A stretch of DNA of 37,639 nucleotides. It comes from a virus. The translations under genes and the position numbers were made by a program. Positions 19,505 through 30,614 of the stretch are shown here, piece by piece; position 1 is the first letter of the stretch, and every line of letters starts with the position of its first letter. The notes beneath the pieces are model-generated. The model was not told where the DNA came from. It worked only from the letters and a program-made list of their open reading frames with translations, and did no database searches. Location: the IMG/VR virus record IMGVR_UViG_3300029624_000222, positions 1 to 37,639 of that record; one strand, written 5' to 3'.

Positions 19505-20998
19505 CTACCTGAACGGATTGAACATGGAAGTGGCTGGCAGGCGAACCTTCCGCTTAGGGCGCGCGCGGTCTCGCCTGCCCTCGAAATCGCGCCGGTCGGC
19601 CGTGCCGAGCAGCCCGTACCCCCCCGCATCTATCGGGTGGCTGTACTCGTTTTTCTCCGGCCGGTCGTAGTTGACCTTCCCCTGGCTGTTGCGGGCGTAC
19701 CTGTAGCCGTGATTGAGCCCGGCACGGACCATCCGGCAATCAGCACTGACCGACAGCGCGGGCTTTCCGTTCTCCAGGATCGTCGACAGCGGCTGCTTCC
19801 ACGCCTCCAGGCGCGGCGGGACGGCGTTGGTGTAGGTCGGGCGAACCGGCACCCCTATCTGGCTTGCAACGATATCGAGCCAGGGGTCGGGCGACGTATC
19901 GCTTTGATAGGCGGCGGACGGATCCCCCCACGCTTGAATCCGAAGCCCGGAAAATTCCTGTTGAAGGATCCGGCTTACCTCTTCGCCAAATGCCCTGGCG
20001 TGGGTCGATTCCGTGTAGAGCTCTTTGAGGATCTGCACGGCGCGGCCCTGACGCTGCATGAATACGCAGGCCGGTGTGGCCCCGGCATCGAAACCGAGTA
20101 TCAGGCCGGCACCAGGCCAGGGCTGGAGGATCCTGCCCCCACAGTGCAGGGCGTCGTTGTAGGCAGTGAAGACAGGCTGACCGGCCCTGCTAAAGCCAGG
20201 CTTGTTATCGATCAGCCGGGCAACTTCCCATGCCTCAGCACCATCGTCCGGATCGTAGTACCCGTTTGGCAGGTTCTCGACGTTCTCCGCTTCCGGCGTG
20301 CGCCCGCCCGGCTGGATGAACAGCTCCCAATTCCTTGGCTTACGCTCGAAAAATCGCTGATATAGCCAATTGTCATGGTTCGGAGCATTGAAGCACATCC
20401 AAAGCCCGTACCAGCTTGGACCGTCGAAGCCGTTGGGCAGATCCTTCTTCGGGTAGCGGCCGAGGCGCTTGATGAGGTAGCCAACGACATCCGGTGACAG
20501 GAGATCTGCTTCGTCGAGAAATGCGAAAGTGGCCTCATAGCCACGTAGCGCATCTTCCGCCGCTTGGTCGCCGATGGCCACAAACTGCACGGTAATCTGG
20601 ATCTCACGATTGCCGATCTGAAAACGAAGCCGGTGCTCCGCGGGCTGATCTTTGCCGCCTATCCAGGTGCCCAGATTGCGGGGCACCCACTCGACCCACG
20701 AGGCAATTGTCGACCGCCACAAATCACGGTAGGTTCGCCGAATGACTAGGAACCTGGCCCGTGCCACACCGTCAGGCCCTGGGACTTGTAGCGCCGTCCG
20801 CCGTATCCCCTCCAGCAATGCCTTGGTTGTTTTACCGGACCCGACAGGCCCCATGATGCCCCGGACGCGAGCATTCGACCGCTCGAAGCGCCGCAATGTG
20901 TGCGCGCTTGCCGGCGTCACATACATGCGCCAGGCCCGCGCGCCTTCATCCTCAAACGAAACGTGTCCGCCGGCTGGCGTATCTTCGTAGTTGCTCAT
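19505..20998 (-). CDS. Terminase large subunit
   Basis: The 497-residue protein has an ATPase half with Walker A GPVGSGKTT at 50-58 and Walker B FAFLDEAD at 158-165. The RNase H-like nuclease half has candidate metal ligands D304 (LILGFDAGATP), D359 (WGDPSAA) and D457 (HPIDAGGYG). It cuts and pumps phage DNA through the portal using ATP. The ATG overlaps the stop of the 91-residue upstream frame as ATGA, and its stop lies 6 nt before the gp13-like gene. Confidence 0.93.
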   Translation of the reverse strand: MSNYEDTPAGGHVSFEDEGARAWRMYVTPASAHTLRRFERSNARVRGIMGPVGSGKTTKALLEGIRRTALQVPGPDGVARARFLVIRRTYRDLWRSTIASWVEWVPRNLGTWIGGKDQPAEHRLRFQIGNREIQITVQFVAIGDQAAEDALRGYEATFAFLDEADLLSPDVVGYLIKRLGRYPKKDLPNGFDGPSWYGLWMCFNAPNHDNWLYQRFFERKPRNWELFIQPGGRTPEAENVENLPNGYYDPDDGAEAWEVARLIDNKPGFSRAGQPVFTAYNDALHCGGRILQPWPGAGLILGFDAGATPACVFMQRQGRAVQILKELYTESTHARAFGEEVSRILQQEFSGLRIQAWGDPSAAYQSDTSPDPWLDIVASQIGVPVRPTYTNAVPPRLEAWKQPLSTILENGKPALSVSADCRMVRAGLNHGYRYARNSQGKVNYDRPEKNEYSHPIDAGGYGLLGTADRRDFEGRRDRARPKRKVRLPATSMFNPFR

Positions 20999-21270
20999 TG
21001 CCCCCGCACCCGGACCCCTGGGACGGGCCGCTTCTGTTCCGATTTTTTCGCTTCGCCGGGGCTCCAGATCTTCCGAATGCTCAGAGGCAGGGACACTGGC
21101 AGAGGCGCGCGGGGCACCCCGGGGGGGTCAATCGCAGAAAAATTGGGACGGGCCATATCCGCGAGGCCGCGTCCGTCCACTGATCTGCAATCAGTCGGCG
21201 CAACATCCGATAGCCCATTGAAATCAATGGCTTGACGGGTGGCGGGTGACTGCAAGGCGGGTGACTTCAT
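20995..21270 (-). CDS. Hypothetical protein between terminase subunits
   Basis: This 91-residue frame overlaps the small terminase stop as ATGA at one end and the large terminase start as ATGA at the other, which favours a real, translationally coupled gene. The sequence (MKSPALQSPATRQAIDFNGL at the start, many Pro and Arg later) resembles nothing I know. It contains seven consecutive C on the coding strand (codons for Asp-Pro-Pro-Gly), a possible slippage point. A non-coding spacer that happens to stay open is the alternative. Confidence 0.45.
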   Translation of the reverse strand: MKSPALQSPATRQAIDFNGLSDVAPTDCRSVDGRGLADMARPNFSAIDPPGVPRAPLPVSLPLSIRKIWSPGEAKKSEQKRPVPGVRVRGQ

Positions 21271-21794
21271 TCGCCGCCTTCCTCGTAAGTGCCTGATTTA
21301 TCAGGGTTTTCCACCATGTCTATGATCTCTGCCTCAAGCGTGCTCATGGCCTCCTGATCGCCACCGCTCGCCGCCTGCATCACGCCGGGGTCAGCCAGCA
21401 CCAAGGGGATAGGCGCATCGACCTGCACAGAGACCGGCTTCTTGGCGTGGTGGTAGGGCATGGCGGCCGTTGCCGCGTTGCGGATCGCACTCAGGGCCTC
21501 GTCAGCGCTGATGCCCAGCGTTGACCGGAGCTCCGCGACCTTATCGGCCAGGCGTTCCGTTGGCGTCCGGGGCTCTCCGCCTTCCGGATCAACTGGCAGG
21601 CTGTAGATAGCCGCCAGCGCCTCAGCCGGATCTGAATAGCCCTTGGCCGCAAGCCACTTGCCCAGCTGCCGCGACCGCCGGTTGATCGCACCAGGTGGCC
21701 GGCCCGGCGCGCGAGCTGGTGCCTGCGCTGGCGCCGCCTCCGGCATGAGCGCGAGTTGGTGACCACGCTCGATGCTGCTTGCGTCATCGGCCAT
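21267..21794 (-). CDS. Probable terminase small subunit
   Basis: The 175-residue protein has a flexible Ala/Pro N-terminus, then GRPPGAINRRSRQLGKWLAA and an AEALAAIYSLPVD helix. AIRNAATAAMPYHHAKKP follows, and the tail is acidic. This pattern is common in proteins encoded directly upstream of large terminases in podoviruses, where the small subunit recognises the packaging site. AAGGGGG lies about 9 nt before the ATG. It is the first gene of the late operon. Confidence 0.72.
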   Translation of the reverse strand: MADDASSIERGHQLALMPEAAPAQAPARAPGRPPGAINRRSRQLGKWLAAKGYSDPAEALAAIYSLPVDPEGGEPRTPTERLADKVAELRSTLGISADEALSAIRNAATAAMPYHHAKKPVSVQVDAPIPLVLADPGVMQAASGGDQEAMSTLEAEIIDMVENPDKSGTYEEGGE

Positions 21795-21893
21795 GGATTT
21801 CTGCCCCCTTTTTTATTCCGTCACCCGGCAGCGGCGCTGCGGTGACAGGAAGGTGACGGCCTGAAATCCAATGGGCCCAACGACTTAAACCAT

Positions 21894-22065
21894 TTGTAAC
21901 CTTGTAACCTGTGTCACTTGCGCTGCCGCTGCGCGCGCGCCCGCGTGAGAGCGCACACACGTAAGGCGCTGGGCGGGTGACAGGGGTTACAAGGTGACGC
22001 GCCCGGAAAAACGAATGAAAACAATGGCCTAGCTGTAACCTGTGCCGTAACCGTGCCGTTACACC
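21894..22065. repeat. TGTAACC repeat cluster (iteron-like)
   Basis: Copies of [TC]GTAACC occur at 21894-21901 and 21902-21909 (tandem TTGTAACC, 8-bp period), inverted at 21985-21992 (GGTTACAA), and again at 22033-22040 and 22045-22052. A further inverted variant lies near 22055-22064. The 22-bp block 21896-21917 and the inverted block 21977-21998 match at 19 of 22 positions. The arrangement suggests multiple binding sites for one protein, for example the small terminase, a late activator or a replication initiator. Confidence 0.6.
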
Positions 22066-22120
22066 CCGGACCCGAAAGGGACAAACAGCCCGGCCCCGCG
22101 CGGCTGCTAGCCACAGCCTT

Positions 22121-22166
22121 GGGGTGCGGGTGCGGGTCTGCGCGCACAAAAGGGGTGCGGGTGCGG
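22121..22166. repeat. Direct repeat GGGGTGCGGGTGCGG, two copies
   Basis: The 15-mer GGGGTGCGGGTGCGG occurs exactly at 22121-22135 and 22152-22166. GGTCTGCGC (22135-22143) and GCGCAGACC (22175-22183) form an inverted repeat around the second copy. The role is unknown. Confidence 0.6.
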
Positions 22167-22210
22167 AGTGACGTGCGCAGACCAGCGCGCGCCGGGGGCG
22201 CGCGAAAGGT

Positions 22211-22238
22211 GCGCCGCTCGCGCGGCGCGCTTTGTTTT
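22211..22238 (+). terminator. Possible intrinsic terminator
   Basis: GCGCCGC (22211-22217), loop TCGC, GCGGCGC (22222-22228), then GC and TTTGTTTT. The interrupted T-run makes this weaker than the terminator at 22384-22409. No gene on the plus strand upstream needs it, so it could end a short leader or antisense RNA. Confidence 0.4.
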
Positions 22239-22313
22239 GCTGGGTGCATCCATCGACCATGGGCCAAGCCTCACCCGCAGCGCGTGCGGCCCGTCAATCC
22301 GCATCATTCGTTA

Positions 22314-22331
22314 TGCATGGTTCACCCTGCA
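22314..22331. promoter_or_regulatory. Operator-like site A
   Basis: TGCATGGTTCACCCTGCA is an 18-bp imperfect palindrome. It matches the site at 22358-22375 in 16 of 18 positions and the inverted site in the immunity region (29960-29977) in 15 of 18. It is likely bound by the CI-like repressor or the HTH regulator encoded at 29625-29915. Confidence 0.6.
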
Positions 22332-22357
22332 CGGCCTCTTTCACGCGGCGGCGAGAA

Positions 22358-22375
22358 TGCATGGTTAGCCCTGCA
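22358..22375. promoter_or_regulatory. Operator-like site B
   Basis: TGCATGGTTAGCCCTGCA lies 44 bp (about four helical turns) from site A, in the same orientation. Flanking identity extends by one base on each side (ATGCATGG...CTGCAC). Equal phasing suggests cooperative binding of the same regulator at both sites. Confidence 0.6.
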
Positions 22376-22383
22376 CTCATGGA

Positions 22384-22409
22384 GTTGCGCGCCGCGCAAC
22401 ACTTTTTTT
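22384..22409 (+). terminator. Intrinsic terminator upstream of ardC
   Basis: GTTGCGC and GCGCAAC (22384-22400) form a GC-rich stem with a 3-nt loop, followed by AC and seven T residues (22403-22409). This is a textbook plus-strand Rho-independent terminator. It would stop transcription that enters from the left, so ardC depends on a promoter downstream of it, or on antitermination. Confidence 0.75.
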
Positions 22410-22419
22410 CGATTGGGGC

Positions 22420-22448
22420 TTGAACCGGCAACCATTGCCGGTTATCTC
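22420..22448 (+). promoter_or_regulatory. Putative ardC promoter overlapped by a palindrome
   Basis: TTGAAC (22420-22425) and TATCTC (22443-22448) are separated by 17 bp, each matching the sigma-70 consensus at 4 of 6 bases. The spacer is filled by the first palindrome of the nested pair, so binding there would block RNA polymerase. Confidence 0.45.
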
Positions 22449-22479
22449 TACCAACACAAACCGGCAATGGTTGCCGGTT
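22423..22479. repeat. Nested palindrome pair upstream of ardC
   Basis: Two 21-bp palindromes, 22423-22443 and 22459-22479, each have arms AACCGGCAA and TTGCCGGTT with a 3-bp centre (CCA or TGG). They are exact reverse complements of each other, separated by 15 bp, with centres 36 bp apart. The DNA reads as a pair of dimer operators; as RNA the whole could form one long hairpin. They sit between the terminator and the ardC start. Confidence 0.75.
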
Positions 22480-22544
22480 TTCGCCGCGGCCTTCCGGCAA
22501 GTTGTTCCCGCGCCACCGCCCACCAGCAGACAGGAGAGACGGCA

Positions 22545-23435
22545 ATGTCAGCCAAGATTTACAAGGAAGTCACCGACCGCATTTGCGCGGCGTTGGAAGC
22601 CGGGGTTAACCCGTGGTCATGCCCATGGAATGCAGCGGGCACCGACGCCCTGCCCCGCAACGCCGTAAGCGAGCGGGCCTATAGCGGCATCAACACAATG
22701 CTGTTGTGGATCGAGGCCTCATGCCGCAACTGGACGGATCAGCGCTTTCTGACATTCAAGCAAGCCAAGGAGTTGGGCGGCACCGTCCGCAAGGGCGAAC
22801 GCGGCACCCGGATTGTCTTCTGGGGCACCGGCAAGGGCACCAAAATTGACAAGAAATCCGGCGAGGAGGTCGCTGCGTCCTACAAGTTCTTGCGGGCCTA
22901 CACCGTCTTTAACGTCGCGCAGTGCGACGGGCTGGGCCAGGCCTACCAGCCGCAGCCGCTAGCGGACCCATCCGAAGACGCCCGCCGCCATGCCTACGCG
23001 GCCGCTGATCGCTTCCTGACGGGTACGGGTGCGGAGTTCAAGCACCACTCCTCTGAGGCCTACTATGTGCCGTCGACGGATGAAATCTACCTCCCCCGGT
23101 CTGATCAGTTCGAGGACATAGAACGGTTCTACACCGTCGCCTTTCATGAGCTCGGGCACTGGACCGGGCACCAGTCCCGGCTGGATCGCGACCTGTCCAA
23201 GCGCTTCAAACTCAATCAGCGCGCGGCTGAGGAATTGATTGCGGAAATGACCGCCGCCTATGTGGCCGGGCGCTTCGGCATGTCCACGGAAATACGCCAT
23301 GCCGAGTATCTCGCCACATGGCTGGAAGTCCTGCGCGATGACAACAGCGCTATCGTGACCGCAGCGTCCAAAGCATCCAAGGCAGCCGACTTCCTTTTCG
23401 ACATTCAGCCGCAAGAGGCACGCAAGGCCGCGTGA
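22545..23435 (+). CDS. ardC: ArdC family anti-restriction protein
   Basis: The 296-residue protein has the two-part ArdC layout. An N-terminal ssDNA-binding domain (residues 1-125) includes NPWSCPWN, SGINTMLLW and RKGERGTRIVFWG. A C-terminal zincin-like metallopeptidase domain has HELGHWTGH at 201-209 and a downstream Glu-rich helix (AAEELIAEM) supplying the third ligand. Known ArdC proteins bind single-stranded DNA and protect incoming DNA from type I and some type II restriction. CAGGAGAGACGGCA precedes the ATG; upstream in-frame codons to 22053 are rejected as they cross the control region. It heads the operon. Confidence 0.9.
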   Translation: MSAKIYKEVTDRICAALEAGVNPWSCPWNAAGTDALPRNAVSERAYSGINTMLLWIEASCRNWTDQRFLTFKQAKELGGTVRKGERGTRIVFWGTGKGTKIDKKSGEEVAASYKFLRAYTVFNVAQCDGLGQAYQPQPLADPSEDARRHAYAAADRFLTGTGAEFKHHSSEAYYVPSTDEIYLPRSDQFEDIERFYTVAFHELGHWTGHQSRLDRDLSKRFKLNQRAAEELIAEMTAAYVAGRFGMSTEIRHAEYLATWLEVLRDDNSAIVTAASKASKAADFLFDIQPQEARKAA

Positions 23436-27796: not shown

Positions 27797-28053
27797 CAGA
27801 TTAGCCCCCCAGTCACAAACACCAGCACGCCAGCAACCCAGGCCTGCCACGTTGCCCGCGTCATGCTTTCACGGCCCTTGCCTGCATCTTCGACTGCGAA
27901 GTAGACGGCCATGAAGTAAAAGGCGCTGCCCGCCGCCCGCTCCAAAAGTGCGAAACCTGCATTTGCATTGAAGCCCGGCAGCACCGTGGCTGCACCGGCC
28001 GCGATCAGTGTCCACGCCGTCACCCAGCACATAGCTCTAACTGCGCCCTGCAT
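27796..28053 (-). CDS. Three-TM membrane protein between primase and helicase genes
   Basis: The 85-residue protein starts at the ATG overlapping the primase stop (TGATG). Hydrophobic segments lie at about residues 7-27 (WVTAWTLIAAGAATVLPGF), 36-53 (AGSAFYFMAVYFAV) and 67-85 (AWVAGVLVFVTGGLI). It is translationally coupled to both replication genes. A role tethering replication to the membrane, or in exclusion, is speculative. Confidence 0.65.
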   Translation of the reverse strand: MQGAVRAMCWVTAWTLIAAGAATVLPGFNANAGFALLERAAGSAFYFMAVYFAVEDAGKGRESMTRATWQAWVAGVLVFVTGGLI

Positions 28054-29624: not shown

Positions 29625-29915
29625 TCACTCCGCTGCCTGAACGGATGCGCTTTGCCGATGCCGCGAAAGGATCGTCAAGGCGTCGACCGGATACCGCTTG
29701 ATGAGCTCTTCGAGCCGGGCTTTTTCCTCTTCCTGGATCACCCGCTCGACCGCGTTGTACGTCGAGGCGTGCGGCTTGCCCCCCGTCTTTTCCCAGCGGA
29801 AGAAGGTCGTGGTGTGGACCTGCGCGCGGTCGCAGACCTCCTGCCGCGTCAGCCCGACCGCCAGAAGACGGCGCACCAGATTTGAAAATGACCCCTGCAT
29901 TTGCATAATTAGCAT
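29625..29915 (-). CDS. Helix-turn-helix regulator, Cro-like position
   Basis: The 96-residue protein has an HTH at about residues 20-45 (GLTRQEVCDRAQVHTTTFFR, then WEKTGGKP) followed by a charged helix. It is the first gene of the early minus-strand operon, divergent from the CI-like repressor, which is the classical place of a Cro-type regulator. Three in-frame ATGs (29915, 29906, 29900) are possible. None has a clear SD, and an operator half-site lies under them. Confidence 0.7.
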   Translation of the reverse strand: MLIMQMQGSFSNLVRRLLAVGLTRQEVCDRAQVHTTTFFRWEKTGGKPHASTYNAVERVIQEEEKARLEELIKRYPVDALTILSRHRQSASVQAAE

Positions 29916-29948
29916 ACGCAGGTGATTTGCGAATTAAGTCAAGTCGCC

Positions 29949-29978
29949 GAGATACAAAATGCAGGGTCCACAATGCAA
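29949..29978 (-). promoter_or_regulatory. Putative early promoter with operator in its spacer
   Basis: On the minus strand, TTGCAT (plus 29973-29978) and TATCTC (plus 29949-29954) are separated by 18 bp. The operator-like site 29960-29977 fills the spacer. The -10 hexamer equals that proposed for ardC. Transcription would start near 29942, about 27 nt before the first ATG of the HTH gene. Confidence 0.45.
29960..29977. promoter_or_regulatory. Operator-like site in the immunity region
   Basis: TGCAGGGTCCACAATGCA is an 18-bp imperfect palindrome. Its reverse complement matches the sites at 22314-22331 (15/18) and 22358-22375 (14/18). A half-site, CCCCTGCA, lies at 29892-29899. TGCATTTGCAT (29896-29906) and ATGCAAACGCA (29973-29983) are additional related motifs. 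Confidence 0.6.
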
Positions 29979-30023: not shown

Positions 30024-30614
30024 ATGTCATCAGACGATCTGAAAGACGCGAAGCTTCGCTGGCTCCGCAACAATCTGGCGCGCGCCAAGCGCACACCGAC
30101 CCAGATCGCCAATGACGCGGGCCTCTCGCCGTCCACATTGCTCCGGTATTTAAAGCCTGACTACAACCGCAACGTGAACGATGCTACCATCGTCAAGGTT
30201 GCTATCGCGCTGGGCGTAGCCCCTCCCGAGGAAATGGGGATCGAAGACAGCGGCTTTGCCACGCAGGACGTAGAACCCTTTGACCACGCGGCTAAGAGCG
30301 CCCCAACCTTGAGCCAGACGGCCAGCAACACTGCTACTGAGTACCAGGTGAAATCCGAGAGCCTGTCACTGGCGGGCTTTATGCCTGGCGACATCTTGGC
30401 CGTCGAGCATGACGCCGCCCTTAGTCGCGGCGACATCGTACTAGCTGAATTTCACAACCGCGCCGGGAAAACCGAAACGGTGCTGCGTGTATATGAGGGG
30501 CCCTATCTGACGGCGCGGTGCCTGCATCCGCCGGCACCCATCCTGATCGACGGGGAGAACACCCGCGTCATTGGCAAGGTGGTGCAGTGCCACAGATATC
30601 ACTGCGCCGTCTGA
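30024..30614 (+). CDS. CI-like repressor with S24-like domain lacking the catalytic dyad
   Basis: The 196-residue protein has an N-terminal HTH (TPTQIANDAGLSPSTLLRYL at about 24-43) and a C-terminal LexA/S24-like fold from about residue 105 (SLAGFMPGDILAVEHDAALS, then RGDIVLAEF and TETVLRVYEGPYL). The canonical catalytic Ser before Met-x-Pro and the Lys partner are not seen: the sequence has GFMPGD and TVLRVY. Similar alphaproteobacterial repressors exist. The ATG at 30024 follows AGAGG at 10-nt spacing; upstream ATGs at 29922 and 29973 are less likely. It presumably maintains lysogeny. Confidence 0.8.
   Translation: MSSDDLKDAKLRWLRNNLARAKRTPTQIANDAGLSPSTLLRYLKPDYNRNVNDATIVKVAIALGVAPPEEMGIEDSGFATQDVEPFDHAAKSAPTLSQTASNTATEYQVKSESLSLAGFMPGDILAVEHDAALSRGDIVLAEFHNRAGKTETVLRVYEGPYLTARCLHPPAPILIDGENTRVIGKVVQCHRYHCAV

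Follow-up and report, generated by a model that had tools for sequence, protein, structure and literature searches.

Operator-like palindromes shared by the immunity and late control regions of a temperate podovirus suggest a two-locus phage regulon

The window, by which we mean the whole 37,639-base stretch of DNA that was analysed, belongs to a large family of temperate podoviruses found mostly in Alphaproteobacteria. Its late operon starts with terS and continues leftward through terL, portal and the genes for head and tail until the left end of the window is reached, and helicase, primase and a small HTH gene are all leftward as well. 3′ of the rightward CI-like gene lie a weak excisionase-like match, a cytosine methylase and, extending to the right end, an integrase-like gene. 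The features discussed below are collected in Table 1.

The intergenic region between CI and the HTH gene measures 108 bp. Between terS and ardC, an ORF on the minus strand (21784–22260) has no family match and an Arg-rich composition, and is therefore probably non-coding; treated as such, it leaves an intergenic region of ~750 bp (21795–22544). Three 18-bp near-palindromes, sites A, B and C, occur only in these two divergent control regions, with A and B located ~520–580 bp upstream of terS. The initial annotation had reported that A and B, whose starts are 44 bp apart, match site C, 7.6 kb away, at 15/18 and 14/18, and its sequences and counts proved correct. Moreover, a motif scan of all 37,639 bases found TGCA-N10-TGCA exactly three times, at A, B and C. 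Equally good matches in coding DNA, which would have spoken against the proposal if frequent, are absent, the best other 18-mer anywhere in the window reaching 13/18. The immunity region and a distant lytic locus of the window carry the same site sequence, the pattern of a multi-locus repressor regulon.

Table 1. Positions of genes and candidate regulatory features in the window.
Feature	Coordinates	Strand	Remarks
terL	19505–20998	-	
terS-like, late operon gene 1	21267–21794	-	precedes terL; weak homologues occupy the same position
TTGAC, possible late -35	22293–22297	-	16 bp from site A; suggestive only
Operator-like site A, TGCAGGGTGAACCATGCA	22314–22331	-	14/18 palindromic; one of three TGCA-N10-TGCA in the window
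Operator-like site B, TGCAGGGCTAACCATGCA	22358–22375	-	matches A at 16/18 and C at 14/18
Hairpin and T tract resembling an intrinsic terminator, between site B and ardC	22384–22400	+	
Palindrome upstream of ardC, AACCGGCAACCATTGCCGGTT	22423–22443		none in shuffles
Second palindrome copy upstream of ardC, AACCGGCAATGGTTGCCGGTT	22459–22479		none in shuffles
ardC	22545–23435	+	ArdcN 2e-39, MPTase-PolyVal 2e-44
Small HTH protein, early operon gene 1 (Cro position)	29625–29915	-	weak HTH matches
Possible half-site AAATGCAGGG, at HTH start codon	29893–29902	-	perfect 10-bp inverted repeat with 29957–29966 (part of C); weak
Early promoter core TTGAC-N7-GCAAATCA, leftward	29923–29942	-	N8 version in CI-side region of ~10 relatives
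Operator-like site C, between HTH and CI, TGCAGGGTCCACAATGCA	29960–29977	+	15/18 to A
CI-like repressor, HTH + S24-like domain	30024–30614	+	

Dinucleotide shuffles of the window yielded 0.025–0.05 matches of at least 15/18 per query. A palindromic 18-mer common to both intergenic regions at ≥15/18 arose in none of 2000 such shuffles and, among 1904 region pairs of matching size sampled from the real window, in 0.05%, and a near-palindromic pair of the A/B type (≥16/18 within 200 bp) was likewise seen in 0 of 2000 shuffles. Once the palindrome requirement is dropped, the 15/18 match between early and late regions is not exceptional, being equalled in 4% of shuffles and 9% of control pairs; the case thus rests on symmetry, the A/B pair and placement. 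Local alignment of the early with the late region of the window gave p=0.17–0.51. Among other words, a GCATA near CI was examined, and GCATAC is present at background frequency. TTTGCATA was rejected as a switch word: it occurs twice, both times by the switch, but 7 of 100 shuffles equal that.

The CI-like protein combines an N-terminal HTH with a C-terminal S24-like domain, as CI/LexA-type repressors do and as is also seen in the family alignment. The Peptidase_S24 match (4e-5) is just over the curated cut-off, accompanied by several weak HTH matches. As in a lambda-type switch, operator-like dyads lie between CI and the divergently oriented HTH gene. In a CI alignment compared by eye with LexA, the window protein keeps a Ser, but the aligned members have a hydrophobic residue where self-cleaving S24 repressors have the catalytic Lys; induction in this phage family may not proceed by repressor self-cleavage.

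The putative early promoter core belongs to a wider set. TTGAC-N8-GCAAATCA, with a spacer one base longer than that of the window, is found in the CI-side intergenic region of ~10 family phages, directed into the early operon; carriers of the N7 or N8 form besides the window are L129, L135, L146, L150, L152, L156, L193, L194 and G001. Three further exact N8 matches elsewhere in other loci look like coding DNA. By eye, no evident -10 hexamer is seen at the usual distance from the early core. Site C lies 17 bp from the TTGAC of this core. On the same leftward strand, another TTGAC occurs 16 bp from site A, and a search of the window's late region found no GCAAATCA and no good -10.

The ardC side of the late control region carries signals of its own. 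Between site B and ardC stands the terminator-like hairpin, followed by a pair of 21-bp palindromes, AACCGGCAA(CCA/TGG)TTGCCGGTT, found nowhere else in the window, the first of which occupies the spacer of a promoter-like sequence, TTGAAC-N17-TATCTC, recognised by eye. This pair probably represents operators for a regulator of ardC other than that of A, B and C. The promoter-like region of ardC in a relative, G001, also holds a palindrome (TTTTGGGACATGTCCTAAAA, 18/20), and ardC may be under its own regulator in both phages. In the terS leader of the window (21896–22062), GTAAC-type words reach 8 per kb, against 0.3 elsewhere in the window. A GTTGCA/TGCAAC cluster marks the ardC–terS intergenic region of L210, G001 (L011), L194, L134, L183 and L035, with 5–11 per kb against 0.1–0.4 elsewhere. 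These short-word clusters of terS leaders are possibly packaging-recognition or replication-origin repeats.

Two distant relatives repeat the three-site layout with a different operator sequence. G001 has the layout of the window, with proteins that are mostly 27–46% identical, and L194 is a prophage in a Bosea genome with an LPD29-domain gene at the place of ardC; LPD29 is a domain associated with large polyvalent proteins. In both, the palindrome is TGTGAA-NN-TTCACA, with one copy between CI and HTH and two between terS and the opposite-strand ardC or LPD29 gene, the latter spaced by 144 bp in G001 and 145 bp in L194. In G001, GTGAASTTTCACA stands between CI and HTH; the terS side has it again, and the copy that precedes ardC differs by one mismatch. 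On the terS side of both relatives, the operator is part of a 29–31 bp duplicate that takes in GCAAATCAGAT of the early core together with the operator, in which the operator sits just downstream of the core; among all carriers, only these two have a second copy of TTGAC-N8-GCAAATCA, upstream of terS. At the anti-restriction gene, the operator adjoins a -35-like element (GTGAAAAGTCAC-TTGACT and GTGAAAATTCAC-TTGCAC). The Bosea genome has two copies of the core and operator block; in the 396 other genomes of its order, none was found. Between G001 and L194, the recognition regions of CI are nearly identical, as are the operators, and the HTH proteins are alike too, being conserved as much as CI.

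We assembled a sample of ~200 loci of the family from helicase and terminase alignments; the named hosts of the helicase matches are mostly Alphaproteobacteria. In the usual layout, int, xis and CI share one strand, and the opposite one carries HTH, primase, helicase, terS, terL and portal, whereas a minority that includes the window and G001 carries ardC between helicase and terS on the opposite strand. In a blind palindrome test of 75 relatives, the window ranked second (z=4.0). For the 75 members with both regions in hand, counts by gap class, made post hoc, gave an accepted duplicate or shared palindrome in 3 of 16 with a helicase–terL gap above 3 kb against 0 of 59 with a shorter one (Fisher p=0.008 with the window and 0.043 without it). 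Segment comparison and local alignment detected no duplicate in most other members with a long gap, and the three-site arrangement is not universal in the family. Some short-gap phages (L112, L175, L103 and L123) rank high in the segment and palindrome tests; their matches look like GC-rich coding DNA and are unlikely to be operators, and an ORF-coverage check does not discriminate them. In L320 and L210 (record G405, around 27868–27900 and 39791–39823), an inverted 70-bp segment with 66 of 70 positions identical has one copy near CI and a second between ardC and terS, the only two in the 41-kb record; L210 is outside the 75. No close relative of the window was returned by a CI query of viral contigs and phages, a TerL query or a DNA search of phages. 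The site pattern TGCAGGGTNAACCATGCA matched no contig, and TGCAKGGTNNACCMTGCA matched 23, with one exact palindrome each, none of which encodes a relative of the window's proteins; by a rough estimate, 23 is about the chance expectation.

Because the statistics of A, B and C are joined by two relatives that keep the topology with a different operator sequence, a two-locus regulon is well supported, and one phage regulator probably governs both early and late genes. The initial annotation had proposed that a single regulator controls the lysis–lysogeny switch together with a late and anti-restriction block. Site statistics and the topology of G001 and L194 uphold its two loci, and its extension to ardC is rendered doubtful in the window by the terminator-like hairpin after B and the separate palindrome pair; the late operon is the better-supported target. 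On balance, we favour a single phage regulator, most likely CI, with A, B and C as its operators; it would shut off the early and late operons in the lysogen. Judging from the sequence, we infer CI as the binder, repression as its action and the late promoter, not ardC, as the object of A and B. In this mechanism, a CI dimer would bind C in the lysogen, and perhaps also the half-site over the HTH start. C and the half-site flank the early core, and the leftward early operon would be turned off. CI would also bind A and B upstream of terS and turn off the leftward late operon jointly with the early one. Separate operators would be required for the late operon, since the ardC block, on the opposite strand, stands between it and the early operon. 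More tentatively, the late operon may need no dedicated activator in this phage family: where an opposite-strand anti-restriction cassette splits the operons, some lineages may have copied the early promoter-operator to a place in front of terS and put an operator before the cassette. The lysogenic repressor would then directly gate early, virion and anti-restriction genes.

The strongest competitor, to which we give a minor but real chance, keeps the regulon and makes the small HTH protein the binder, tuning early and late transcription in lytic growth. Site C lies in the promoter region of the HTH gene itself, a half-site overlaps its start codon, and the HTH protein is conserved between G001 and L194 as much as CI is, although the sequence does not separate the HTH protein from CI as binder. 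Since CI and Cro of better-known phages generally bind common operators, the two proteins may both be binders here. We consider it improbable that the regulator is instead an activator of the leftward early and late promoters acting from about -61. Such a role would agree with the like spacing of C and A, 17 and 16 bp upstream of a same-strand TTGAC, and the early core without an evident -10 would fit an activated promoter, but the operator of G001 and L194 sits in a repressor position and the late promoter at A is only putative. It is very unlikely that the sites serve a host regulator or DNA processing such as packaging or replication, even though the terS leader with A and B also holds the cluster of another short repeat: site C is 7.6 kb away between CI and HTH, and relatives with another sequence in the same places suggest a phage-specific binder. 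A chance likeness of short palindromes is scarcely credible. Ungapped 15/18 matches free of the palindrome requirement do appear in 4–9% of controls, but 2000 shuffles never yielded the palindromic match, nor did 2000 yield the A/B pair, and the topology recurs in two relatives.

With CI as the favoured binder, the predicted system resembles lambdoid CI/Cro in having an operator between divergent CI and HTH genes. The late genes of lambda are expressed via Q and not through CI operators at the late promoter; here, unlike in lambda, operator-like sites also precede the late operon. In coliphage 186, CI acts at the promoter of the late activator gene B, and the system proposed here is similar in that its lysogenic repressor would act on a second locus through which late expression is gated. 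However, 186 represses an activator gene, and no separate late activator was recognised here. Phage P1 has 22 C1 operators, which are asymmetric and 17 bp long, and its late control operates via the activator Lpa (PMC8546580). Similar to P1 C1, one lysogenic repressor with dispersed operators would gate late and early expression (PMC8546580), with binding being predicted in our case; unlike P1, there are three near-palindromic sites and no recognised late activator. Rep of L5 and Cluster A phages uses up to ~30 short asymmetric sites (operators and stoperators), most of them outside promoters, where they block elongation (PMC6550527). Shared with Rep are a single repressor, predicted here, and repeated sites whose sequence varies between heteroimmune relatives (PMC6550527), whereas the sites described here are few and all lie within divergent control regions.

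Dispersed repressor operators are thus already established by P1 C1 and L5 Rep. What sets the present case apart is the small number of near-palindromic candidate sites and, in relatives, a putative duplicate early promoter placed in front of the terminase operon; in the open-access literature, we found no paper describing the switch of this podovirus family. Our findings suggest a simple way for the virion genes of a temperate phage to stay under immunity control once a cassette has split the lytic transcript, namely by copying the early promoter together with its operator. They also offer an operator code that can be tested across this large family of temperate podoviruses, whose hosts are mostly Alphaproteobacteria.
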